A program made the translations under genes and the position numbers. The notes under the pieces are model-generated. The model had not been told where the DNA came from and searched no databases. It saw only the letters and a list, made by a program, of their open reading frames with translations. This document shows, in pieces, positions 2,702 through 55,362 of a DNA stretch of 64,000 nucleotides (position 1 is its first letter; each line of letters starts with the position of its first letter). Source of the DNA: Thioalkalivibrio sp. ALE31 (lineage in GTDB: Bacteria > Pseudomonadota > Gammaproteobacteria > Ectothiorhodospirales > Ectothiorhodospiraceae); NCBI RefSeq assembly GCF_000377405.1, contig NZ_KB905021.1, positions 334,038 through 398,037 on the forward strand, written 5' to 3'.

Positions 2702-5700
2702 CTAGCGTTCGATGCGGTAGATCAGGTCGACGGACTGTTCCGTGGTGCCGGAGGCGGTTTCCACGCTCAGGTTGCGGGTCAGTTCATAGCGCAGCAGGAC
2801 CTTCGAGGTGTTGTCGAACAACCCGATGGAGTAGCGCAGCAGGAGTCTTGGCGAGAGGTACAGACCCAGCGTCAGCGCGCTCTCGTCCAGCCCGCCCTCG
2901 GTATCCAGTTCCACCTCGTCCAGGCCCAGTTCGCGGCCGATGCGCTCGGTGATGACCGCACCCTGTTCCAGGCCGTAGGCCGCCGCGGCGGCGGCGATCA
3001 TGTTGCCGTCCGATTGTGATGCGCCCGACAGGGGGCGACCGGTCAGCAGGAACGACATTGCCTCGGTCTCGTCCATCGGCGGGTCGGAGACCACCCGCGA
3101 GCGCAGGTTGTCCGGCGTGCCGCGGATCTCCAGGCCGACTGTCACGTTGTATTCCCGCACGGTGCGCACCGCGCGCAGGTCCAGTTCCGGGGTTTCCGCC
3201 GGCCCCTGGAAGACGAGGCTGCCGCGTTCCACCCGCAGATCCTGGCCATAGTCGCTGTACTGCCCCTCGGGGATGGTGATCTCGCCGAAGAGCTGGGTGG
3301 GCTGCCCGGTGATCTCCTCGACATCCACCTCGCCGGCGAAGCGCGCGGTCAGGCCGAAGCCGTCGAAGCGCACGTCGTTGCCCAGCCGGATCCGGATCCG
3401 GATGTCGGTCTTCAGCCCCTGGGCCTCCTGGATCTCCTCGCCGAGGATGATCTCGTCGCCGGAGACCCGGATCGCGCCCGGCGGCAGGTCCGGCGGGCGG
3501 ATGCGCGCCCAGGGCAGGAACACCTCGCCGCGCACGCGAATGCCGTCGGCGGGGGTGAAGACCAGCTGCAGGTCCGGTGTGATGCGGGCCTCCGCGTCCA
3601 CCCGATTGACCACCAGGAAGTCCGTGCCGGCCAGATTCAGTTCGGCGCGCGGGCCGTCGCCCCCGAGATCGACCCGGCCGTCGAGGTCGATGCCGCCATC
3701 GCCCGACTCCAGCCGCCCGGCGAGCGTCAGCTCCTCGGCCGACACCACGCGGGCCGTGATCTCGGGGATCACGACGTCGATACCCGCCTCCGGGATCAGC
3801 ACGCCCCCGTCGCGGAAGGCCACCTCACCCTCCACCAGCGGTGCGTCGAGGCGGCCACCAAAGTCCAGGCGGGCGTCCAGCGACCCTCTCAGGCGCTGGA
3901 TCTCGGGGCTCAGGGCGGCCAGCCAGGCCAGGTCCTCGAGCCGCGCGACAAAGTCACCGTCCAGGCGCAGGTCCTCGCCGTCCGGGCGCAGGCGGATGTC
4001 GCTGCGGGCGGTTCCGCCCTCCAGGAAGTCGAGGCGCAGGGCGGCGTCCACGTCGCGGTCGCGTATCCGGGCGGTCAGGCGCCCATCGCGATAGGGGACC
4101 TCTTCGAGATCCCCGTCCTCGTCCCGCACGATCAGGTGGCCGTCGGTCGGGGTCACGGCCAGGTCGGCCGCCAGGGTGCCGTCGGGGTCGAGGCGGCCGC
4201 TGGCGTCGGCGTTCAACTCGCCGGCGATGGCCAGTTCCGGCGGCAGGAAGGGTTCCAGCCACGCCAGGTCCAGGGCCCGGATGTCGGCATCGAATTCCGC
4301 CCCTGCGGTGGCGCTCCAGCGGGCCTCGGTACACAGGCGTGCGTCGTCCCGAGCCAGGCACAGGCGCCCCAGCCGCGCCTGCTCGGGCCCGCCCTCCAGC
4401 GCGACCGGCTCGGCCAGGCTCCAGGCCCCGGCGGCGGGCTGGTCCAGGTCCAGTCGTGCGAGCTGTCCGCGCCAGTGCAGGGTCTCGGGGTCCAGGCCGC
4501 CGCGCAGCGCCAGTTCCAGCGAACCCAGGTCTGCCGCATCTGCGGCGAGGGTGACGCGGTGTTCATCCACGCGGCCGGAGGCGTCCAGCCGCAAAGACTC
4601 CACCCGCGTACCGTCGCCCGGTTCGAGCCCGGTCAGGCGCAGCTCGATCTCGGCGGGTGCGGCCACCTCGAGGCCCGCATCGGCCTGCAATTCCAGCCGT
4701 TCCAGGGTGATGTCCGCCAGTCGCAGGCCGGCGCCGCTGCCGCGCGCCGCAACGCGCGGACGCTCGGGGTCCCCCGCGATACGCGCATCCAGTTCCAGTC
4801 GGCCGCCAAGGTCGGGCCAGGCCCGGTCCAGCTCCGGTGCATCCAGTTGCAGTTCGAAGTCGAGGGCGTCGGTCCACTCGCCGCGGGCGCTCAGCGTGTT
4901 CCGACCCAGCGCCAGGTCCAGGCGGTCCACGCGCAGGTGTTCGCCCTCCAGCGCGAGTTCCGCCTGACCGGAAACGGGCTGTTCGCGCAGGCGGCCCTCC
5001 AGGCGCTGTAGTCGGGCCTGGAGGCGCGGGCGGCCGTCGGCGTCCAGGTGTCCCTCGCTGGTCAGGGCCAGCGCGAGCTGGCCGGGGAGCTCGGCGGCCA
5101 CCAGTGACGGGTCCAGCCTCTCGCCGTCCAGCGCGAGATCCCACGCCAGGCCTTCGGTCCAGTCGAGGTCGCCGCTCAGGGCCAGCCGGGCACCTGTGTC
5201 GGCAGCGAGCTGCAGCCGTTCGATCTGGCCACCGGTCTCGCTCAGCGCGACCCGGGCGTCACCCGTGATGTCGATCCCGCGCAGGCCGGCCTGCAGCGGG
5301 GCCAGCTTGAGCTGCGCGGCGAGGCCACCGCTGGCGGGTGCGTAGTCGCCGTCCAGTGCCACGCGCAGTTGTTCGATGTGGCCGTCCAGCTCTGGGTGCA
5401 GGCGTGCCAGTTCCGGGGCCGCGAGGTCCAGCCCGAGGTCGAAGGCGATGCGGTGATCGGGATCGGTCAGGTCGCCGGCCAGGCCCGTGGCCGCACCCGC
5501 CAGATCCAGCCGCGCGAGGTCGCGGATGGCCAAGCGGGTGTCCTCGATGCCGGCCTCGCCATCGGCCACCCACGCGTTCAGGCGCCCGCTGAGCGGATGA
5601 TCCTCGAAATGTCCTTCCAGTTCGGTGACGCTCGCGCGTGCCTCCAGGGCGGCCAGGGGCGGGGCGTCGGTCCCCAGCGGCAGGTGACCCTGCAGCTGCG

Positions 5701-45307: not shown

Positions 45308-45966
45308 GTCGGGCTGCGGGGATGCGGAAGCCCGGGGATCTTGCGGGCGGGGCGAGGCTGGCCGGTCTGCTGGTCGGCCTGGGTCTTCTGCTGGGTGGCT
45401 GTGCCGCGCCCCTGCCGGAGGCGGATACCTCGCCGGCCGCCGAGGCCGCCTTCGAGGCCCGCACCGCACAGCTGGAGGCGCTGGACAGCTGGCGACTGGT
45501 CGCGCGCCTGGGGCTGGCCTCCGGTGAGGAATACTGGTCCGCCCAGCTCAACTGGCGGGTGCAGGAAGGTCAGCACGTGCTGGACCTGTCCGGCCCGATG
45601 GGGCGCGGTGGTGGCCGGCTGACGCTGTCGGAGAACGGCCGCGCGCTGCTGGTGACCCGGTCCGGCGAGCGTTTCCAGGCGCAGGACCCGGATGCGCTCG
45701 TCGCGCGGGTCCTGGGCGAGTCGATCCCGGTCAGCGGCATGGTCTACTGGGTGCGTGGCCTGCTCCACCCCGAGGCCTCGTACCAGCTGGATGTCGACGC
45801 GGACGGCCGGCCACTGGAGATCCACCAGTCCGGCTGGACCATCGAGTACAACGAATTCGAGGAAATCGACGGCCTGGCGATGCCGGTCACCATGGTGCTG
45901 GAGCGCGAAGGGGTGGAATTGCGGGCCCGCATCGGTCGCTGGCAGCTTGGTGGTGATCCGTCATGA
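45304..45966 (+). CDS. lolB: Outer membrane lipoprotein receptor LolB
   Basis: 220 residues. LolB takes lipoproteins from LolA and inserts them in the outer membrane, and is itself a lipoprotein: signal and lipobox LLGGCAAP at about residues 30-35. The half-barrel fold is indicated by SWRLVARLGLASGEEYW and LNWRVQEGQHVLDLSGPMG, and HQSGWTIEYNEFEEIDGLAM is the C-terminal LolB pattern. It overlaps the preceding TPR lipoprotein and the following ispE by 4 bases each, so the three are tightly coupled. Confidence 0.93.
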   Translation: MSRAAGMRKPGDLAGGARLAGLLVGLGLLLGGCAAPLPEADTSPAAEAAFEARTAQLEALDSWRLVARLGLASGEEYWSAQLNWRVQEGQHVLDLSGPMGRGGGRLTLSENGRALLVTRSGERFQAQDPDALVARVLGESIPVSGMVYWVRGLLHPEASYQLDVDADGRPLEIHQSGWTIEYNEFEEIDGLAMPVTMVLEREGVELRARIGRWQLGGDPS

Positions 45967-46844
45967 CCGCTGCCGTCGCGGGCGGGGCCTTCGACACCAC
46001 TTTTCCCGCGCCCGCCAAGATCAATCGATTCCTGCATATCACCGGCCGGCGGGCGGACGGATATCACGAGCTGCAGACGGTGTTCCAGTTCCTCGGGCTG
46101 GAGGATCGCCTGCGCTTCGAGCCCCTGCCGGCGGGGCGCTTCGAGATGGCGGGCGCGGCCATCGACGGGGCCGACAACCTGTGCCTGCGCGCGGCCCGGC
46201 GCCTGGCCCGGGTGGCGAAGACCCCATTTGGCGTGCGTATCCATCTCGACAAGCGGATCCCGGTGGGCGGTGGCCTGGGGGGCGGCAGTTCCGATGCCGC
46301 CACCACGCTGGTGGCCTTGAATGCCCTGTTCGAGCTGGGGTGTGATGTCGAGCAGCTGGTGGGGATCGGCCTGGAGCTGGGTGCCGACGTACCGGTGTTC
46401 GTGGTCGGCCAGGCAGCCTGGGCCGAGGGTGTGGGCGAGCGGCTCACGGCCGTGGCCCCGGATACCGGCTGGATCCTGCTGATCGACCCCGGGGTTTCGG
46501 TCGCCACCGGGGCGATGTTCGGGTGTGCGGAATTGACACGCGACTGCCCCACCGAGACAATTTCGTCCGCCGTCGACGCCAGCCGGTTCGTCAACGTGTT
46601 CGAACCGGTGGTGCGGGCTCGTTATCCGGAGGTGGATCGAGCGCTGCACTGGCTGGCGGAGCAGACGCCGCGGGCGCGCCTGAGCGGGAGTGGCGGTTGC
46701 GTGTTCGGGGTGTTCCCCGACGAAGCGGCCGCTGGGGCGGCGCAGTCCGCGCAGCCGGCTCCGTGGCGCAGCTGGGTGACACCGCTGGTAAACGTGTCGC
46801 CCCTGCGGGCCTGGCTGCCGCCAGGCGGTGTCGAGACAGAGTAA
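45963..46844 (+). CDS. ispE: 4-diphosphocytidyl-2-C-methyl-D-erythritol kinase
   Basis: 293 residues. GHMP kinase of the non-mevalonate isoprenoid pathway. The lysine/aspartate start region FPAPAKINRFLHITGRRADG, the ATP loop IPVGGGLGGGSSDAATTL, and the third motif ARLSGSGGCVFGVF are all intact. The stop codon lies 12 bases before the first interrupted tRNA-Gln unit, so ispE runs into the tRNA array. This lolB-ispE-tRNA-Gln-prs order is typical of gammaproteobacteria. Confidence 0.97.
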   Translation: MTAAVAGGAFDTTFPAPAKINRFLHITGRRADGYHELQTVFQFLGLEDRLRFEPLPAGRFEMAGAAIDGADNLCLRAARRLARVAKTPFGVRIHLDKRIPVGGGLGGGSSDAATTLVALNALFELGCDVEQLVGIGLELGADVPVFVVGQAAWAEGVGERLTAVAPDTGWILLIDPGVSVATGAMFGCAELTRDCPTETISSAVDASRFVNVFEPVVRARYPEVDRALHWLAEQTPRARLSGSGGCVFGVFPDEAAAGAAQSAQPAPWRSWVTPLVNVSPLRAWLPPGGVETE

Positions 46845-46856
46845 GTCCAGAGTTAT

Positions 46857-46998
46857 TGGGCCGTGGCCAGGCGGTAAGGCAGCGGGTTTTGATCCCGCTA
46901 AGCGCCAGGTTCGACGCGAGCGGCGCAGCCGCGACCGACCGTCGCCGAAGGTGACGGCCCGTAAGGGTGGCGCGCAGCGCCATCATCCTGCCGGCCCG
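46857..46998 (+). pseudogene. Interrupted tRNA-Gln(TTG) copy 1, T-loop split by 70-nt insert
   Basis: Bases 46857-46914 read as a tRNA-Gln(TTG) from the acceptor 5' strand through the anticodon (TTTTGAT loop) to TTCGA of the T-loop. A 70-base insert (46915-46984) follows, then ATCCTGCCGGCCCG, the T-stem and acceptor 3' half. Deleting the insert restores TTCGAATCC exactly. This copy has decayed: A14 is changed (CCAGGCGG), the variable/T-stem side carries one extra base, and the discriminator/CCA region reads GGATC instead of GCCA. It is probably not a working tRNA. Confidence 0.8.
46915..46984 (+). other. Hairpin-rich 70-nt insert in tRNA-Gln copy 1
   Basis: Nearly every base can pair into a chain of short hairpins: GCGGC-GCA-GCCGC (46920-46932), CCGTCGCC-GAA-GGTGACGG (46939-46957), CCC-GTAA-GGG (46958-46967) and TGGCGC-GCA-GCGCCA (46968-46982). 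The 5' end CGCGA plus a five-pair GC stem with GCA loop resembles the REP-like element at 51591. It contains no reading frame and is far too short for a self-splicing intron. Confidence 0.75.
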
Positions 46999-47050
46999 GA
47001 TCGGCGCCGCCGATCCGCGGGATGGACCGGGCACGACGCCGGCCGGGCAG

Positions 47051-47056
47051 TACAAT
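47051..47056 (+). promoter_or_regulatory. Candidate -10 box of tRNA-Gln copy 2
   Basis: TACAAT, 17 bases before the tRNA start; a weak -35-like CGGGCA lies 17 bases upstream (47028-47033). The same spacing recurs in the next unit. Confidence 0.5.
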
Positions 47057-47073
47057 AGAGTCCAGCGAGTTAT

Positions 47074-47213
47074 TGGGCCGTAGCCAAGCGGTAAGGCAGC
47101 GGGTTTTGATCCCGCCATGCGCAGGTTCGACGCGAGCGGCGCAGCCGCGACCGACCGTCGCCGCAGGTGACGGCCCGAAGGGTGGCGCGCAGCGCCATCA
47201 TCCTGCCGGCCCG
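47074..47213 (+). pseudogene. Interrupted tRNA-Gln(TTG) copy 2, T-loop split by 69-nt insert
   Basis: Bases 47074-47130 match the intact tRNA-Gln to TTCGA, except the first anticodon-stem pair, which is G-C instead of C-G on both sides. A 69-base insert (47131-47199) follows, then ATCCTGCCGGCCCG. The conserved A14, the D-arm and the anticodon loop are intact, so with the insert removed it would fold as a complete tRNA. It lacks an encoded CCA (reads GATC after the discriminator). It is functional only if the insert is excised and CCA is added by the CCA-adding enzyme; by default I call it a pseudogene. Confidence 0.8.
47131..47199 (+). other. Hairpin-rich 69-nt insert in tRNA-Gln copy 2
   Basis: Same structure as in copy 1 with few changes: the middle hairpin loop is GCA instead of GAA, and one base is lost in the mini-hairpin (CCCGAAGGG in place of CCCGTAAGGG). 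All stems are preserved, showing that structure, not only sequence, is retained between copies. Confidence 0.75.
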
Positions 47214-47265
47214 GATCGGCGACGCCGATCCGCGGGATGGACCGGGCACGATGCCGGCCAGGCAG

Positions 47266-47271
47266 TAGAAT
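47266..47271 (+). promoter_or_regulatory. Candidate -10 box of the intact tRNA-Gln
   Basis: TAGAAT 17 bases before the mature tRNA, with a -35-like CGGGCA at 47243-47248 (17-base spacer). It lies in the tail of interrupted unit 2, so the functional tRNA's promoter is part of the repeat. Confidence 0.5.
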
Positions 47272-47288
47272 AGAGTTCAGCAAGTTAT

Positions 47289-47363
47289 TGGGCCGTAGCC
47301 AAGCGGTAAGGCACCGGGTTTTGATCCCGGCATGCGCAGGTTCGAATCCTGCCGGCCCAGCCA
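47289..47363 (+). tRNA. glnT: tRNA-Gln, anticodon TTG
   Basis: A complete 75-nt cloverleaf: acceptor TGGGCCG / CGGCCCA, D-arm GCC / GGC, anticodon stem CCGGG / CCCGG with loop TTTTGAT (anticodon TTG), T-arm GCAGG-TTCGAAT-CCTGC, discriminator G and encoded CCA. Mature end at 47363. It is the only intact member of the three-copy array, located between ispE and prs, the classical gammaproteobacterial position. Confidence 0.97.
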
Positions 47364-47488
47364 ACACCCGCCCCGCGCCCGAGATGGCGCGAGGCAAAAC
47401 CATCAAGACCCCGGCCCAGCACCGGGGTCTATACTGGGGCCCGGGCGATATCGCAGCCCGCCCCACTCCATCCAGACCGGGACGAACC

Positions 47489-48445
47489 GTGGTCGACAAG
47501 AATCGCATGATGATCTTCGCGGGCAATGCGAACCCGCGTCTCGCCCAGGCCGTTGCCGAGCACCTGGGGCTGCCCATGGGCAAGGCCATCGTCGGACGTT
47601 TCAGTGATGGCGAGGTGCAGGTCGAGCTGCTGGAGAACGTCCGCGGTCGCGACGTGTTCCTGATCCAGCCGACCGGCCAGCCAACCAACGAGAACATCAT
47701 GGAGCTGGTGATCATGGTGGATGCGCTGCGCCGCGCCTCGGCCGGCCGCATTACCACGGTGATCCCGTATTTCGGCTACGCGCGCCAGGATCGGCGCGTG
47801 CGCTCGGCGCGGGTGCCGATCTCGGCCAAGGTGGTCGCGAACATGATCGAGGCGGTCGGCGCGGACCGTGTGCTGACGATCGACGTGCACGCCGACCAGG
47901 TGCAGGGCTTCTTCAACGTCCCGGTAGACAACATCTATGCCTCGCCGGTCCTGCTGGGCGATGTCTGGCGACATGTCTCGGGCGATCTGACCGTGGTGTC
48001 GCCGGATGTCGGCGGGGTGGTGCGCGCCCGCGCGATCGCCAAGCGGCTGGACGACGCCGACCTGGCGATCATCGACAAGCGCCGCCCGCGCGCGAACGAG
48101 TCGGAGGTGATGCACATCATCGGTGACGTGCGCGGCAAGTCCTGCATCATCATCGATGACCTGGTGGATACCGCCGGCACGCTGTGCCAGGCCGCAAAGG
48201 CCCTGAAAGAACACGGGGCGCACTCGGTGATGGCCTACGCCACGCACCCCGTGCTTTCTGGCGCGGCAATTGATAACATAAACGGTTCGGCGCTTGACGA
48301 GCTTGTGGTGACCGACACGCTGGCCCTGCAGCCCAACGCGCAGAGCTGCGACAAGATCCGGCAGTTGTCGGTGGCGGAGATGCTGGCCGAGACCATCCGC
48401 CGCATCAACCGCGAGGAATCCGTCAGTTCGCTGTTCATGGACTAG
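47489..48445 (+). CDS. prs: Ribose-phosphate pyrophosphokinase (PRPP synthetase)
   Basis: 318 residues from the GTG at 47489. The following in-frame ATGs at 47507 and 47510 lack a ribosome site and would shorten the conserved N-terminus; a GGGACG lies before the GTG, but the choice is not certain. It makes PRPP for nucleotides, His, Trp and NAD. Motifs: [69 protein letters not shown], and the PRPP loop [14 protein letters not shown]. rplY follows after a hairpin. Confidence 0.95.
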
Positions 48446-48526
48446 CGAGAGCGTCGGGCCGAAAACGATTTCGGGAGGTTCGCCTCCCTTCAGCGCCCCG
48501 CCTGGTCGCGGGCGGGGTGTGTTCAG

Positions 48527-48555
48527 GGCGCTTCGGGTGAAGCGCCTTTCATTTT
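48527..48555 (+). terminator. Stem-loop between prs and rplY (terminator/attenuator-like)
   Basis: Perfect 8-bp stem GGCGCTTC-GGGT-GAAGCGCC followed by TTTCATTTT; a GC-rich CCCCGC/GCGGGG stem precedes it. It ends 14 bases before the rplY start, so it acts either as a prs terminator with read-through or as a leader structure for L25 control. Confidence 0.6.
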
Positions 48556-48568
48556 GGAGACCGTAGCA

Positions 48569-49270
48569 ATGAGCATGAGCTTTACCATTGAAGCCGAGAA
48601 GCGTGGCGAACAGGGTTCGAGTGCGAGCCGCCGCCTGCGTCGCGCCGGCAAGCTGCCCGCCATCCTGTACGGGGCGGACAAGGACGCCGTGGCCATCACG
48701 CTGGATCACAACGCGATGGTCCATAACCTCAAGGAAGACGCGTTCTACTCGCACATCCTCAGCGTGAAGCTGGACGGCAAGACCGAGAAGGCGATCCTGC
48801 GCGACGTGCAGCGCCATCCGTTCAAGCCGACCATCTACCACGTCGACCTGATGCGCGTGAGCGCCAACCAGCCGATCCGCGTCAGCGTGCCGCTGCACTT
48901 CCATAACGAGGAAGAGGCCAAGGGCGTGAAGCTGGGCGGCGGCATGGTCAGCCGCATGATCAACGAGCTCGAGGTCGAGTGCCTGCCGGGCGATCTGCCC
49001 GAGTCCATCGATATCGATGTCGTCGAGATGGATGTCGGCGACACCCTGCATATCTCCGAGCTGAAGCTTCCGGAAGGCGTGCAGAGTGTCGCGCTGATGC
49101 ATGGCGAGGAATACGACTACGCCGTGGTCAGCGTCCTGCTGCCGCGCGCCGCCAAGACCGAGGAAGAAGAGGTCGGGGAAGGCGAGGCTGCCGAGGCCGA
49201 AGGTGGCGAGGAAGCCGCGGGTGGCGAAGAGGCCTCCGGCGACGAGTCGGAGTCCGGGGACAAGGAGTAA
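48569..49270 (+). CDS. rplY: 50S ribosomal protein L25/general stress protein Ctc
   Basis: 233 residues from the ATG at 48569 (GGAGA upstream). N-terminal L25 5S-rRNA-binding domain ([52 protein letters not shown]) plus a C-terminal TL5/Ctc domain ([20 protein letters not shown]). It ends in an acidic Glu/Gly/Ser tail (from [18 protein letters not shown] to SGDKE), typical of the long Ctc form, and the acidity is in line with a salt-adapted proteome. Context prs-rplY-pth-ychF is standard. Confidence 0.95.
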
Positions 49271-49295
49271 GCCCCTGCGGCTTGCCGCCTGAACG

Positions 49296-49919
49296 ATGGC
49301 GATCCAACCCGAACCGATTCGTCTGGTGGTCGGGCTGGGCAACCCGGGCCCGCGTTATGCCGAAACCCGGCATAACGCGGGTTTCTGGTTTGTGGACACC
49401 CTGGCCCGCCGGCATGGCGTGGACTTTCGCCCCGAGAGCCGCTTCGATGGCGAGGCGGCCCGCCTCAACCTGCCCACGGGCGACTGCTGGCTGCTCAAGC
49501 CCATGAGCTTCATGAACAAGAGCGGCCTGCCGGTGCGCAAGTGCGCCGATTTCTACCGTATACCCCCCGAGGCTATCCTGATCGTCCACGACGAACTGGA
49601 CCTCGATCCGGGCGTGGTGCGGCTGAAAATGGGTGGCGGGCATGGCGGCCACAATGGCCTGCGGGATCTGCATCGACACCTGGGCGGCCCGAACTACGCT
49701 CGGCTGCGGGTCGGCATCGGCCACCCGGGGCATCGCGATGATGTGGTGCCCTTCGTGCTGGATCGTCCCGGCAAGGCCGACACGCAGGCGATCGAGGAAG
49801 CCATCGACAAGGCCCTGGATCAGGTGCCTGCGCTGGTAGCCGGGCGCTGGGACGAGGCGGTGCGCAATCTGCATGGCGGCAGCACGAAGCCGGCCACGAA
49901 TTCCGAGGAAACCCGATGA
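49296..49919 (+). CDS. pth: Peptidyl-tRNA hydrolase
   Basis: 207 residues. Recycles peptidyl-tRNA dropped by ribosomes. Conserved [20 protein letters not shown] with the catalytic His (HNAGF), [36 protein letters not shown] and [13 protein letters not shown]. The gene overlaps ychF by 4 bases (ATGA), as is common. Confidence 0.97.
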
Positions 49920-51010
49920 GTCTTAAATGCGGGATCGTGGGTCTGCCGAACGTCGGCAAGTCCACCCTGTTCAATGCCCTCACGCGTGCGGAGATCGCCG
50001 CGGAGAACTATCCCTTCTGCACCATCGACCCGAACGTGGGTGTGGTGGAGGTCCCGGATCCGCGCCTGACCCGGCTGAGCGAGATCGTGAAGCCCCAGCG
50101 CACGCTTCCCACCACGGTCGAGTTCGTGGACATTGCTGGGCTGGTGGCCGGGGCGGCCCAGGGCGAGGGGCTGGGCAACCAGTTTCTGGCGCATATCCGC
50201 GAGACCGACGCCATCGCGCAGGTGGTGCGCTGCTTCGAGGACGACGACATTGTGCATGTCGCCGGCAAGGTCGATCCGATCGCCGACATCGAGACCATCA
50301 GCACCGAGTTGATGCTGGCGGATCTGGAGACCGTGAACAAGGCGCTGAAGCGTCTGGAACGGGCGGCCAAGTCGCAGGACAAGACCGCGATCGCCCAGCT
50401 CAAGGCCGCCGAGAAGGTCGGGGCCGGCCTGGATCAGGGGATTCCTGCGCGGGCCCAGGATCTGGACGAGGACGAGCGCCAGGCACTGTACGACCTGCAT
50501 CTGTTGACCCTCAAGCCGCTGATGTACATCGCCAATGTCGACGAGGCCTCGCTTGCCGGGGGTAACGCGATGGTGGAGGCAGTGCAGGCCCGCGCGGCCG
50601 AGGAGGGTGCCGAGGTAGTCAGTGTCTGCGCTGCCATCGAGGCGGAGATCGCGGTGCTCGACCCGGAGGAGCGCGCGGAATTTCTGGCCGATCTGGGGCT
50701 GGAAGAGCCGGGGCTGGACCGGGTGATCCGCACCGCCTATCGCCTGCTGAGCCTGCAGACATTTTTCACCGCCGGCGAGAAGGAAGTCCGCGCCTGGACC
50801 GTGCGCCAGGGCTCCAGCGCGCCGCAGGGGGCCGGGGTGATCCACACCGATTTCGAGCGCGGTTTCATCCGTGCCGAGGTGGTGGGGTACGAGGACTTCG
50901 TGGCCCACAACGGCGAGCAGGGCGCGAAGGACGCGGGGAAATGGCGCCTCGAGGGCAAGGAATACGTGCTCAAGGAAGGCGACGTGGTACATTTCCGCTT
51001 CAATGTCTGA
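49916..51010 (+). CDS. ychF: Redox-regulated ATPase YchF (Obg-like GTPase family)
   Basis: 364 residues. P-loop [34 protein letters not shown] (switch II), then a coiled coil (about residues 130-190) and a C-terminal TGS domain ([31 protein letters not shown]). YchF prefers ATP, associates with ribosomes and is involved in oxidative-stress sensing. It is translationally coupled to pth. Confidence 0.96.
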
Positions 51011-52401: not shown

Positions 52402-52698
52402 TGGGGTACTCGGTTTCGCGCGGGGCGTTGGTTCGGGATGTGGACGGTGCCGGGTCGGGTACGGGTCCAGCTTCCATAGGTTCGGGCGGAATGGGTGCGG
52501 ATTGCGCACGTTCCCTCAGTTTTCCCCGACGATCGGCGCCATAGAAGGCTTTCGCTTGACCTGTTGGCGGCACAGTCGGGATACTTGCGCCTTTTATGCC
52601 CGCCCGACACCGGCGCATGGTAGCAAATGCCCGACCGCCCGGTGGCCCGGCCCTTTAGTGGCAACCCGATTTCCAACCCGTTTTCAGGGGTAGAGCGC

Positions 52699-55362
52699 AT
52701 GGACCCGAACGCGACCGAACACGATATCGACCCGCAGGAGACCCAGGAGTGGATCGACGCCCTGGCCTCCGTGCTGGAGACGGATGGCCCCGAGCGGGCG
52801 CATGCCCTCCTCGAGCGGCTGGTCGACAAGGCGCGCCGCAGCGGGGCTTACCTGCCGTACTCCGCCAATACCGCCTATGTGAACACCATCCCCACCCACC
52901 TGGAGCCCGAGTATCCGGGCGACGGCGCGGTGGAGCACCGCATCCGTTCCTACATCCGCTGGAACGCGATGGCCATGGTGGTCAAGGCCAACCGTGCCTC
53001 GGCCGAGCTGGGCGGGCATATCGCGACCTTCGCGTCCGCCGCCACGCTGTATGACGTCGGCTTCAACCACTTCTGGCATGCCCCGTCGCACGATCATGGT
53101 GGCGACCTGCTGTTTGCCCAGGGGCATTCCTCGCCGGGGATCTACGCCCGCGCGTTCATGGAGGGCCGCCTGAGCGAGGAGCAGCTGGACCACTTCCGTC
53201 GCGAGGTCGATGGCAAGGGCCTGTCCTCCTACCCGCATCCGTGGCTGATGCCGGACTTCTGGCAGTTCCCGACCGTGTCCATGGGCCTGGGCCCGATCAT
53301 GAGCATCTACCAGGCGCGTTTCATGCGCTATCTGCAGGATCGCGGCCTGGCGCAGACCGAGAACCGTCGCGTCTGGAGCTTTGTCGGCGACGGCGAGGTG
53401 GACGAGCCGGAGACCCTGGGCGCGATCACGCTGGCCTCGCGCGAGAAGCTGGACAACCTGACCTGGGTGGTGAACTGCAACCTGCAACGTCTGGACGGCC
53501 CGGTGCGTGGCAATGGCAAGATCGTGCAGGAGCTGGAGGCGATCTTCCGCGGTGCCGGCTGGAACGTGGTCAAGGTGCTGTGGGGTCGCTACTGGGACCC
53601 GCTGCTGGCCAAGGATACCGACGGGTTGCTGCAGAAACGCATGATGGAGGCGGTCGACGGCGACTACCAGAACTACAAGTCGCGCGACGGCGCCTACGTG
53701 CGCGAGCACTTCTTCGGCAAGTACCCCGAGCTCAAGCGCATGGTGGCCAACATGTCCGACGAGGACATCTGGCGCCTGAATCGCGGCGGCCATGACCCGG
53801 TGAAGGTCTATGCGGCCTACAAGGCGGCGGCTGAGCACAAGGGCCAGCCGACCGTGATCCTCGCGCACACGGTGAAGGGTTACGGCATGGGCGCGGCGGG
53901 CGAGGCGCAGAACCGCACCCACAGCCAGAAGAAGATGGACGCGGACGACATGAAGCAGTTCCGCGACCGCTTCAATATCCCGCTGTCGGACGAGCAGGTG
54001 GAGAGGGCCGAGTACATCAAGCCGGACCCCGACTCCGACGAGATGAAGTACATGCACGAGCGGCGCAAGGACCTCGGCGGCTACCTGCCGGTGCGCCGCC
54101 CGCTGGCCACCCCGCTGGAGATCCCGGGGCTGGATGCCTTCAATGGTCTGCTGGAGGCCTCCGGCGAGCGCGAGATGTCCACCACCATGGCCTTCGTGCG
54201 TCTGCTGACCCTGCTCGCGCGCGACAAGAAGATCGGCAAGAACATCGTCCCGATCGTGCCCGACGAGGCTCGTACCTTCGGCATGGAAGGGCTGTTCCGT
54301 CAGCTGGGGATCTACTCCTCGGTCGGCCAGCTCTACGAGCCGCAGGACAAGGACCAGGTGATGTATTACAAGGAGGACAAGAAGGGCCAGATCCTGGAAG
54401 AGGGGATCAACGAGGCCGGCTCCATGTCCTCCTGGATCGCGGCGGCCACCTCCTATTCCACGCATGGCGTGGCGATGGTGCCGTTCTACATCTTCTATTC
54501 GATGTTCGGCTTCCAGCGCGTCGGCGACCTGATCTGGGCCGCCGGCGACATGCGTGCCCGCGGCTTCCTGATGGGGGCGACTGCCGGGCGCACCACGCTG
54601 GCCGGCGAGGGCCTGCAGCACGATGACGGCCACAGCCTGATGATGGCCGCCAACGTGCCCAACTGCATCGCCTACGACCCGACCTTCGCCTTTGAGCTGG
54701 CGGTGATCGTGCAGGACGGCATGCGCCGCATGTACGCGGAGCAGCAGAGCGTCTTCTACTACATCACCGTGATGAACGAGAACTACCCGCAGCCGGCCAT
54801 GCCGAAGGGCGCCGAGGAAGGCATCCGCCGCGGCCTGTACCGGCTGCAGGCCGGCGGGCGCAAGAAAAAGAAGGTGCGCCTGCTGGGCTCCGGTACCATC
54901 CTGCGCGAGGCCATTGCCGCCGCCGAACTGCTGGACCAGGACTTCGGCGTGGCCGCCGAGGTCTGGAGCGCGACCAGCTTCAACGAACTGGCCCGCGACG
55001 GCCGCGATGCCGAGCGCCATGCGCGCCTGCACCCGGACGCCAAACCGCGCACATCCTGGGTGGAGGAATGCCTGGGTGATTCGGATGCGCCGGTGGTCGC
55101 CGCGACCGACTACGTGCAGGCCTATGCCGACCAGATCCGTGCCTTTGTGCCGGCCGACTACCGTGTGCTGGGGACCGACGGCTTCGGCCGTTCGGATACC
55201 CGCGCCGCGCTGCGCCGCCACTTCGAGGTGGATCGCTACCACATCGCGGTCACGGCCCTGAAGGCCCTGGCCGATGCCGGGACCGTCGAGGTCAAGACCG
55301 TGGCCGACGCGATCAAGAAGTACAAGATCGACGTCGAACGGCCCAACCCGTTGCAGGCCTGA
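52699..55362 (+). CDS. aceE: Pyruvate dehydrogenase E1 component, homodimeric type
   Basis: 887 residues from the ATG at 52699 (AGGGG site). Thiamine-diphosphate-dependent decarboxylase of pyruvate in the PDH complex. Markers: YLPYSANTAYVNTIPTHLEP, the TPP-binding stretch FVGDGEVDEPETLGAI with the GDG...N pattern (NLTWVVNCNLQRLDGPVRGN), and GLQHDDGHSLMMAANVPNC. Usual length about 885-890. First gene of aceE-aceF-lpd; no pdhR-like regulator is adjacent. Confidence 0.97.
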   Translation: MDPNATEHDIDPQETQEWIDALASVLETDGPERAHALLERLVDKARRSGAYLPYSANTAYVNTIPTHLEPEYPGDGAVEHRIRSYIRWNAMAMVVKANRASAELGGHIATFASAATLYDVGFNHFWHAPSHDHGGDLLFAQGHSSPGIYARAFMEGRLSEEQLDHFRREVDGKGLSSYPHPWLMPDFWQFPTVSMGLGPIMSIYQARFMRYLQDRGLAQTENRRVWSFVGDGEVDEPETLGAITLASREKLDNLTWVVNCNLQRLDGPVRGNGKIVQELEAIFRGAGWNVVKVLWGRYWDPLLAKDTDGLLQKRMMEAVDGDYQNYKSRDGAYVREHFFGKYPELKRMVANMSDEDIWRLNRGGHDPVKVYAAYKAAAEHKGQPTVILAHTVKGYGMGAAGEAQNRTHSQKKMDADDMKQFRDRFNIPLSDEQVERAEYIKPDPDSDEMKYMHERRKDLGGYLPVRRPLATPLEIPGLDAFNGLLEASGEREMSTTMAFVRLLTLLARDKKIGKNIVPIVPDEARTFGMEGLFRQLGIYSSVGQLYEPQDKDQVMYYKEDKKGQILEEGINEAGSMSSWIAAATSYSTHGVAMVPFYIFYSMFGFQRVGDLIWAAGDMRARGFLMGATAGRTTLAGEGLQHDDGHSLMMAANVPNCIAYDPTFAFELAVIVQDGMRRMYAEQQSVFYYITVMNENYPQPAMPKGAEEGIRRGLYRLQAGGRKKKKVRLLGSGTILREAIAAAELLDQDFGVAAEVWSATSFNELARDGRDAERHARLHPDAKPRTSWVEECLGDSDAPVVAATDYVQAYADQIRAFVPADYRVLGTDGFGRSDTRAALRRHFEVDRYHIAVTALKALADAGTVEVKTVADAIKKYKIDVERPNPLQA

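Follow-up and report, generated by a model that had tools for sequence, protein, structure and literature searches.

The two tRNA-Gln(TTG) genes that are interrupted in their T-loops in Thioalkalivibrio sp. ALE31 carry inserts which, by sequence comparison, appear to belong with the gammaproteobacterial four-hairpin unit best known from RtT RNA and the tyrT repeats. We consider it probable, if well short of certain, that the inserts are an RtT-like four-hairpin insertion unit and that both interrupted copies are dead tRNA genes, multiplied in tandem. The form found in the window (the whole 64,000-nt stretch of DNA analysed here)—an upstream tRNA fused to an RtT-like core—appears to be new; the RtT kind of repeat itself is known, if poorly understood. 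The observation is real and reflects neither chance nor an assembly slip of one genome. When relatives were searched for T-loop inserts, as an earlier note on this DNA had proposed, upstream copies were present at the tRNA-Gln(TTG) locus in 10 of the 20 same-genus genomes inspected (out of 30, the window's included; one to three copies each), and a T-loop-split copy lay downstream of the intact gene in 13 of the 20, the window's genome having none. Such recurrence speaks against the assembly error that had been named as a way for the observation to vanish.

Direct reading of the window revealed three tRNA-Gln(TTG) sequences, all on the plus strand, between a GHMP kinase gene (45963..46844, plus strand; PF00288, PF08544), presumably ispE, which ends 12 bases before copy 1, and the ribose-phosphate pyrophosphokinase gene prs (47489..48445, plus strand; PF13793, PF14572). 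Copy 1 comprises a tRNA 5' part to TTCGA (bases 1-58; 46857..46914), a 70-nt RtT-like core between A58 and base 59 (46915..46984) and the T-stem/acceptor 3' strand, ATCCTGCCGGCCC (46985..46997), whose letters are those of the intact gene at 47346-47358 and which stops before base 72. Copy 2 has the same parts: a 5' part to TTCGA (47074..47130), a 69-nt core, again between A58 and base 59 (47131..47199), and the 3' strand ATCCTGCCGGCCC (47200..47212), both cores being recognised by RF00391 and by our model R1 (below). In each copy a hairpin, GGATCGGC...GCCGATCC (46998..47016 and 47213..47231), stands where base 72, the discriminator and CCA would stand; GGATCG came next after the 3' strand in all 14 matched upstream Gln copies of same-genus genomes. 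The third sequence is an intact tRNA-Gln(TTG) with encoded CCA (47289..47363). The coordinates and insert lengths reported earlier were right, and removing the inserts does restore the T-loop of the intact neighbour, the split lying between A58 and base 59. That copy 2 keeps everything except the CCA was correct for the CCA only: base 72 is changed as well, giving U1-G72, and the hairpin follows. Elsewhere in the window, a complete aceE-II RNA motif (RF04317, 239.5 bits) occupies 52517-52707, and a sigma-70-like promoter match (10/12) lies at 46533-46561, in the 3' end of the ispE-like gene and about 300 bases before copy 1.

Scored against RF00005, the intact gene reached 68.7 bits, copy 2 29.2 bits and copy 1 24.3 bits. 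A functional tRNA would be expected to have an intact base 72 and the conserved A14; both copies have G instead of A at base 72, so that U1-G72 replaces U1-A72, and copy 1 has lost A9 and A14 (G14 is present) and has one extra base before the T-loop. G72, the missing CCA, G14 in copy 1 and the intact gene in the same cell together argue against charging of either copy, and most likely the two no longer function as tRNA genes and bear the mark of an insertion unit. ARAGORN nevertheless reports both as tRNA-Gln in the window as it stands, and calls a tRNA-Gln(TTG) cloverleaf for each when the insert is left out: a warning for annotation, given that split tRNAs of this type get called as real genes. 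Forced into a cloverleaf, copy 2 lies 3.4 kcal/mol above its best fold if the core is free to refold and 4.5 kcal/mol above it with the hairpins as drawn, both energies being computed without tertiary contacts. In its free ensemble, acceptor pairs 2-6 and the anticodon stem have a probability >0.97, the D-stem pairs one of 0.01 and the T-stem pairs one of 0.14-0.19. By this folding model, a tRNA-like RNA from copy 2 is possible, not predicted. Since the T-loop motif consists of bases 54-58 while bases 59-60 bulge out, extra bases at the split could leave the elbow intact; a split placed just after bases 54-58 might thus let a transcript keep its normal elbow, and the split copies could possibly yield a stable tRNA-like RNA with extra arms.

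The kinship with RtT RNA rests on several comparisons. Under permissive settings, Rfam family RF00391 matched copy 2 with 39.7 bits (47083-47217) and copy 1 with 30.0 bits (46866-47002), both below its gathering score of 45 bits and hence outside the family by score; an Rfam search restricted to hits above the gathering scores missed this kinship. Relatives did reach or pass the cut-off (57.5, 50.2, 46.1, 45.0 and 45.0 bits; genus best 67.9). RF00391 matched 26 of 30 genus genomes at E≤0.01—over the cut-off in 23 of the 30—and, among 14 control genomes, E. coli only. We further used two models trained on the genus's Ser cores, R1, which includes the T-loop flanks and so favours T-loop matches, and R2, which lacks flanks. 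R1 scored core 2 at 56.0 bits (47124-47203) and core 1 at 49.6 bits (46908-46988); R2 gave 45.6 and 38.1 bits, a match of both window cores to the genus Ser-core model. The tyrT-tyrV-rttR region of E. coli K-12 holds four cores. GGTTCGA (once GGTTCGG) precedes each of them and ATCCTTCCCCCACCACCA follows, and in the rttR region and the tyrT-tyrV spacer the cores end in GAGTA or GAATA ahead of ATCCTTCCCCCACCACCA. As E. coli K-12 shows the order GGTTCGA/core/ATCC too, the T-loop split is a general RtT feature and not special to the window. The window copies share with E. coli the T-loop-split core followed by the tRNA 3' strand; RtT RNA, annotated in E. coli at 171 nt, would be expected to follow an intact tRNA gene and to close with the CCA of that gene, which the window copies, upstream and without CCA, do not. 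Scores below the cut-off together with this upstream, CCA-less site make the window copies RtT-like rather than strict family members. RtT was reportedly first described by Bosl and Kersten in 1991, and we know of no agreed origin or function for the repeats beside E. coli tyrT.

We inspected 203 non-redundant R1 matches, drawn from stretches picked as better-scoring (211 matches less seven duplicates and one at window position 4024 that had 16.2 bits). The core, with the consensus C-H1-AA-H2-H3-H4-(GA)GTA or a variant, is non-coding and mostly 60-85 bases long, with TTCGA on the left in 151 of the 203 and ATCC on the right in the same number. H3 is of the CCC-GNA-GGG type, with a GNA loop in 175 of 180 simple H3 hairpins. 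An alignment of 131 matches (120 distinct), itself fitted to the structure, had two-sided changes at 25 of 25 pairs and 94.0% of cells paired, as compared to 65.6% in shuffles and at most 43.2% in slid controls. On a gap-free alignment of 19 genus cores, 24 cells changed on both sides (6.2 in shuffles), pair types were not in excess (12 vs 11.8) and the outer H3 pair failed in nine of the 19. The window inserts folded alone are little more stable than shuffles (z -1.8 and -1.1); in their best free fold H2 forms and the region of H1 pairs with that of H4. Four local hairpins formed freely in 99 of 201 of the non-redundant matches, neither window core among them. The earlier description of the inserts as hairpins therefore calls for caution: the window inserts taken alone prefer another fold, and the four-hairpin structure is drawn from relatives and covariation. 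The covariation fits a selected RNA just as well as an insertion element. The share of G-T pairs, considered as a sign of hairpins formed at the DNA and not the RNA level, gave no contrast (2.4-2.7% vs 3.3% in tRNA stems).

Sorting the same 203 matches by context showed that downstream copies keeping the tRNA 3' part make up most of those inspected, the upstream form with a 5' part being rarer. In 112, a short T-arm piece, the core and a tRNA 3' part occurred together and the stretch also contained the tRNA in question, which was a Ser, Gln, Tyr, Arg, Glu or Val tRNA. Another 31 had a T-loop-like start and no matching tRNA within the stretch. Of these, at least four depart from the downstream form: L118 1849 is an upstream copy, L121 1182 and L122 1514 are decayed, and L110 1429 lies on the opposite strand. 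Nineteen resembled the window in having the whole 5' part of a tRNA—Gln(TTG) 13, Ser(TGA) 4, Ser(CGA) 1 and Arg(CCT) 1—although this class required an intact tRNA within the stretch, so that their position beside an intact gene is partly built in. Three interrupted the D-loop of tRNA-Ser after GGCTGA, six interrupted a dispersed CGTCATTGCGAG repeat, and the rest comprised 16 unclassified, 11 that lacked the H3 motif, four resembling a T-loop on their left side alone, and one T-loop row (L330) at first assigned to the repeat. By eye, two further D-loop cases were recognised (L267, then L199), so that tRNA-Ser copies, partial or whole, have a core within the D-loop at L310 134-216, L333 1311-1405, L252 2483-2565, L267 1201-1288 and L199 2061-2145; an intact tRNA-Ser(GCT) follows within 200 bases in L310, L333 and L267.

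Within the window's own genome, R2 found 12 places: seven split T-loops, one remnant beside a Ser array and four in the dispersed repeat. RtT-like arrays stand there at tRNA-Ser(CGA) (L009 2765-4100) and tRNA-Ser(TGA) (L010 2811-3076), with a further one at a contig end. R1 had matches in 27 of the 30 genomes of the genus and, among Gammaproteobacteria, in 67 of 232 genomes belonging to 58 of 196 genera (E≤0.001, these E-values being rough). Across the phylum it matched 37 of 299 genomes at E≤1e-6; 15 of these are not Gammaproteobacteria, and all 15 come from one family. Four families (f1, f100, f107 and f111) showed the upstream form, at several tRNA genes. A contig scan gave at least 120 stretches, many of the 80 listed arising by chance; R1 matched 22 of those 80 (E≤0.001), and the named records among the matches listed included Marinobacter, Aquisalimonas, Pseudoxanthomonas and Thioalkalivibrio (two records). 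The idea that all downstream copies are closed by the complement of their own tRNA's 3' strand held for some only: the own-tRNA complement exceeded the average over tRNAs of other amino acids in 61 of 97 copies (means of 4.8 vs 3.6 pairs), and complement stems of at least eight pairs occurred only at Tyr, Glu and some Gln genes.

The dispersed repeat supplies the strongest evidence for a discrete unit. It occurs uninterrupted, ATTGCGAG...CGAAGCAATC, nine times in the window's genome (L359-L367) and with a core four times (L280, L281, L282, L283), the cores sitting exactly between GCA (once GTA) and ATCT and ending GAGTA (once GAGTT). This junction equals that of the T-loop, A|C...GAGTA|ATC. 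In one relative (G009), the CGTCATTGCGAG repeat likewise harbours RtT-like cores (L284, L286, L369, L370, L371), and the last bases of the core are common to 12 places, five of which were read. The unit thus occupies A^ATC in T-loops, GA^A in tRNA-Ser D-loops and GCA^ATC in the dispersed repeat. Because empty and filled repeats coexist in one genome, we take the core to be a discrete insertable unit; the comparison caught no insertion event as such, and precise loss of the core would give the same set of empty and filled repeats. The core looks like a precise insertion unit, a tiny insertable element rather than an intron. Of the possibilities the earlier note had raised, a REP-like or mobile sequence inserted in the T-loop and then duplicated comes near this result, with its precise unit in T-loops, D-loops and a dispersed repeat; what it missed was the kinship with RtT RNA (RF00391) and the genus-wide arrays at other tRNAs.

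A search for the mover considered Y1 transposases. The window's genome has two PF01797 genes, and all 23 near-complete genus genomes have such genes, including two (G016 and G017) without an R1 match; R2, run at E≤1 on 12 stretches around Y1 transposase genes, one of them from the window's genome, found no core. With genes present with or without cores and flanks free of R2 matches, a Y1 transposase as mover is unsupported, and a linked Y1 transposase with the same hairpins, as looked for in a comparison with REP/RAYT or IS200-IS605 systems, was not found. By eye, a single CCCGGAGGG-like motif was seen in two of five transposase-flank stretches.

At the tRNA-Gln(TTG) locus, copies come and go around a constant gene. 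All 20 genus loci retain the intact gene, four have neither an upstream nor a downstream copy, and one (G008) has an upstream 3' remnant without a tRNA 5' part. Tandem upstream copies have a unit of 215-220 bases. In 12 of 14 upstream Gln copies, the 5' part was closer to the intact gene of its own genome than to the mean of other genomes' genes, and in six of the 14 it was identical to it; the two exceptions to the former are the window's copies 1 and 2. Pair 27-43, A-U or G-C, changes in step with the intact gene in nine of 10 genomes, the window again being the exception, with G27-C43 in both copies and C27-G43 in the intact gene (47289-47363). Nine other intact genes have G-C or A-U at this pair, which points to a double change in the window's functional gene. 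Since 5' parts track their own intact gene, neighbours seem to have repeatedly exchanged sequence in the relatives, not demonstrably in the window, and the sequences suggest that recombination with the intact gene keeps the copies tRNA-like in those relatives. The downstream core of one genome (G022) shares 97% identity with six of the 14 upstream cores, whereas upstream and downstream cores from a single genome share 73-86%, implying that cores were exchanged or replaced too. The window's two exceptions and the limited identity of cores within a genome count against the reading we prefer.

How the copies arose and persist can be put as a sequence of events under the reading we prefer, an RtT-like insertion unit in dead tRNA genes. 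The core would be, or would once have been, a non-autonomous insertion element that spreads with the help of an enzyme acting on it; a tRNA-Gln gene fused to, or struck by, a core would have given rise to copies 1 and 2; and tandem multiplication of the fusion, in units of about 215 bases, would have followed. The products would make no working tRNA-Gln and would be tolerated because the intact gene remains. Going further, one may suspect—tentatively, and with somewhat less than even confidence—that the RtT/tyrT repeats and the window inserts alike are arrays or scars of one class of tiny non-coding mobile hairpin elements, which would land precisely in both elbow loops of tRNA genes (in the T-loop after A58, and in the D-loop) and in a dispersed repeat, leave an intact tRNA beside them and depend on an enzyme recognising hairpins that adjoin a short target, ATCY for instance.

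The most serious rival, unlikely on balance yet deserving weight since relatives are reported as expressed in Actinobacillus (in the passages of PMC4986893 on these RNAs), holds, in line with another possibility raised in the earlier note, that the copies encode a selected RNA: a tRNA-like 5' part plus core, transcribed with the intact tRNA and cut by tRNA-processing enzymes, acting for instance as a decoy for enzymes of the tRNA elbow or T-arm or in an amino-acid shortage response as claimed for E. coli RtT. The same passages describe Northern-positive relatives in Actinobacillus pleuropneumoniae and the release of E. coli RtT from the tyrT transcript (PMC4986893), and the strong pairing constraint on the cores, the upstream form at several tRNA genes in four families and a cloverleaf for copy 2 that is 3.4 kcal/mol above its best fold (4.5 as drawn) all fit. 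Against it stand the comings and goings of the copies, absent altogether at tRNA-Gln(TTG) in 4 of 20 genus genomes, the tRNA features lost from copy 1, the same core in dispersed repeats away from any tRNA, the low ensemble probabilities of the D-stem (0.01) and T-stem (0.14-0.19) of copy 2, and a sole promoter-like match about 300 bases before copy 1, inside ispE. Plain pseudogenes, that is, random tRNA-Gln duplicates that carry an old insert and decay, seem an improbable account in themselves. The losses of A14 and A9 in copy 1 and of A72 and CCA in both, the intact gene next door and the lack of special closeness between the window copies and their own intact gene would all follow, but decay alone would not leave a 5' part identical to the intact gene in six of 14 upstream Gln copies or keep the pairs of the cores in relatives. 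If recombination maintains the copies, pseudogenes are compatible with the insertion-unit explanation.

Islands with a tyrosine integrase likewise exploit the portion of a tRNA that runs from the T-loop to the 3' end, and in downstream copies the 3' part of the tRNA does come after the split, as it does at integrase attachment sites; still, scars of such islands are a very improbable source, given five housekeeping proteins and no integrase among the five neighbouring proteins tested (45963-51007), a core conserved across tRNAs and dispersed-repeat cores that lack a tRNA 3' end. Less credible again is an intron or tolerated insertion, in which the inserts would be removed or the split tRNA would work, as the earlier note had also considered. 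The boundaries are precise and the split lies at a fold point of the T-loop that, from tRNA structure, may tolerate extra bases, but an intact Gln(TTG) gene exists at all 20 genus loci inspected, the acceptor end is damaged (U1-G72), copy 1 lacks A14, and units of this kind also interrupt partial tRNA copies, which could not function.

Beyond copies 1 and 2, the wider pattern of cores is the more interesting outcome. The comparison gives RtT repeats a concrete anatomy, with a covarying core and a fixed junction at A58, and gives RtT-like cores a wide range, a second tRNA site in the D-loop and a site outside tRNAs that exists both empty and filled. Whether the repeats are RNA genes or mobile elements can thereby be put to a direct test. 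In full-text literature, with few subscription papers covered, we found no report of RtT cores inserted in tRNA loops and none linking RtT cores to the CGTCATTGCGAG repeat; this silence is weak evidence of novelty.

Compared with known systems, the inserts resemble some in part. Group I and archaeal tRNA introns interrupt a tRNA gene, and their removal restores it; the inserts are unlike them in having 70 bases, a T-loop position, a damaged acceptor end and an intact gene beside. REP and IS200-IS605-type miniature elements are short palindromic non-coding units with a precise junction. The core shares palindromes and precise junction with them, and its insertion next to ATCY fits a short one-sided target; it differs in having four hairpins and in its absence near 12 Y1 transposase genes. 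Among small RNAs, Aggregatibacter AaHKsRNA22 (RF02902) shows a sub-cut-off likeness to two relatives (35.8 bits for L275 and 32.3 for L310; cut-off 39.8), and Arrc20/Arrc21 of Actinobacillus pleuropneumoniae have been assigned to RtT (PMC4986893); the relevant passages describe AaHKsRNA22 and Arrc20/21 as small RNAs adjoining tRNA genes and leave T-loop insertion unmentioned. Enterobacterial rtT-like elements upstream of gatY, rbfA, cvpA and other genes were assigned to BIME repeats, so that rtT had been connected with dispersed repeats before; in the part of that paper concerned they are read as transcription attenuators, with no split tRNA or comparison of empty and filled sites there (PMC2965389). 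For Salmonella serovars, a section of PMC2658671 gives repeat-number changes of 175 bp in rtT RNA and of 220 bp at a tRNA-Gly, which are in keeping with tandem copy-number change.

The nearest relatives remain the RtT/tyrT repeats of E. coli. The window copies differ from them in lying upstream with a complete tRNA 5' part, without base 72 and CCA, and in scoring below the cut-off. Many downstream copies, like RtT, have a GGATGAGAA-type inverted stretch ahead; tandem spacing is 178 bases in E. coli RtT and about 182-186 at the genus's tRNA-Ser genes, and the tRNA 3' part is included. Window copies and RtT/tyrT repeats have in common the split GGTTCGA/core/ATCC and the same core layout.
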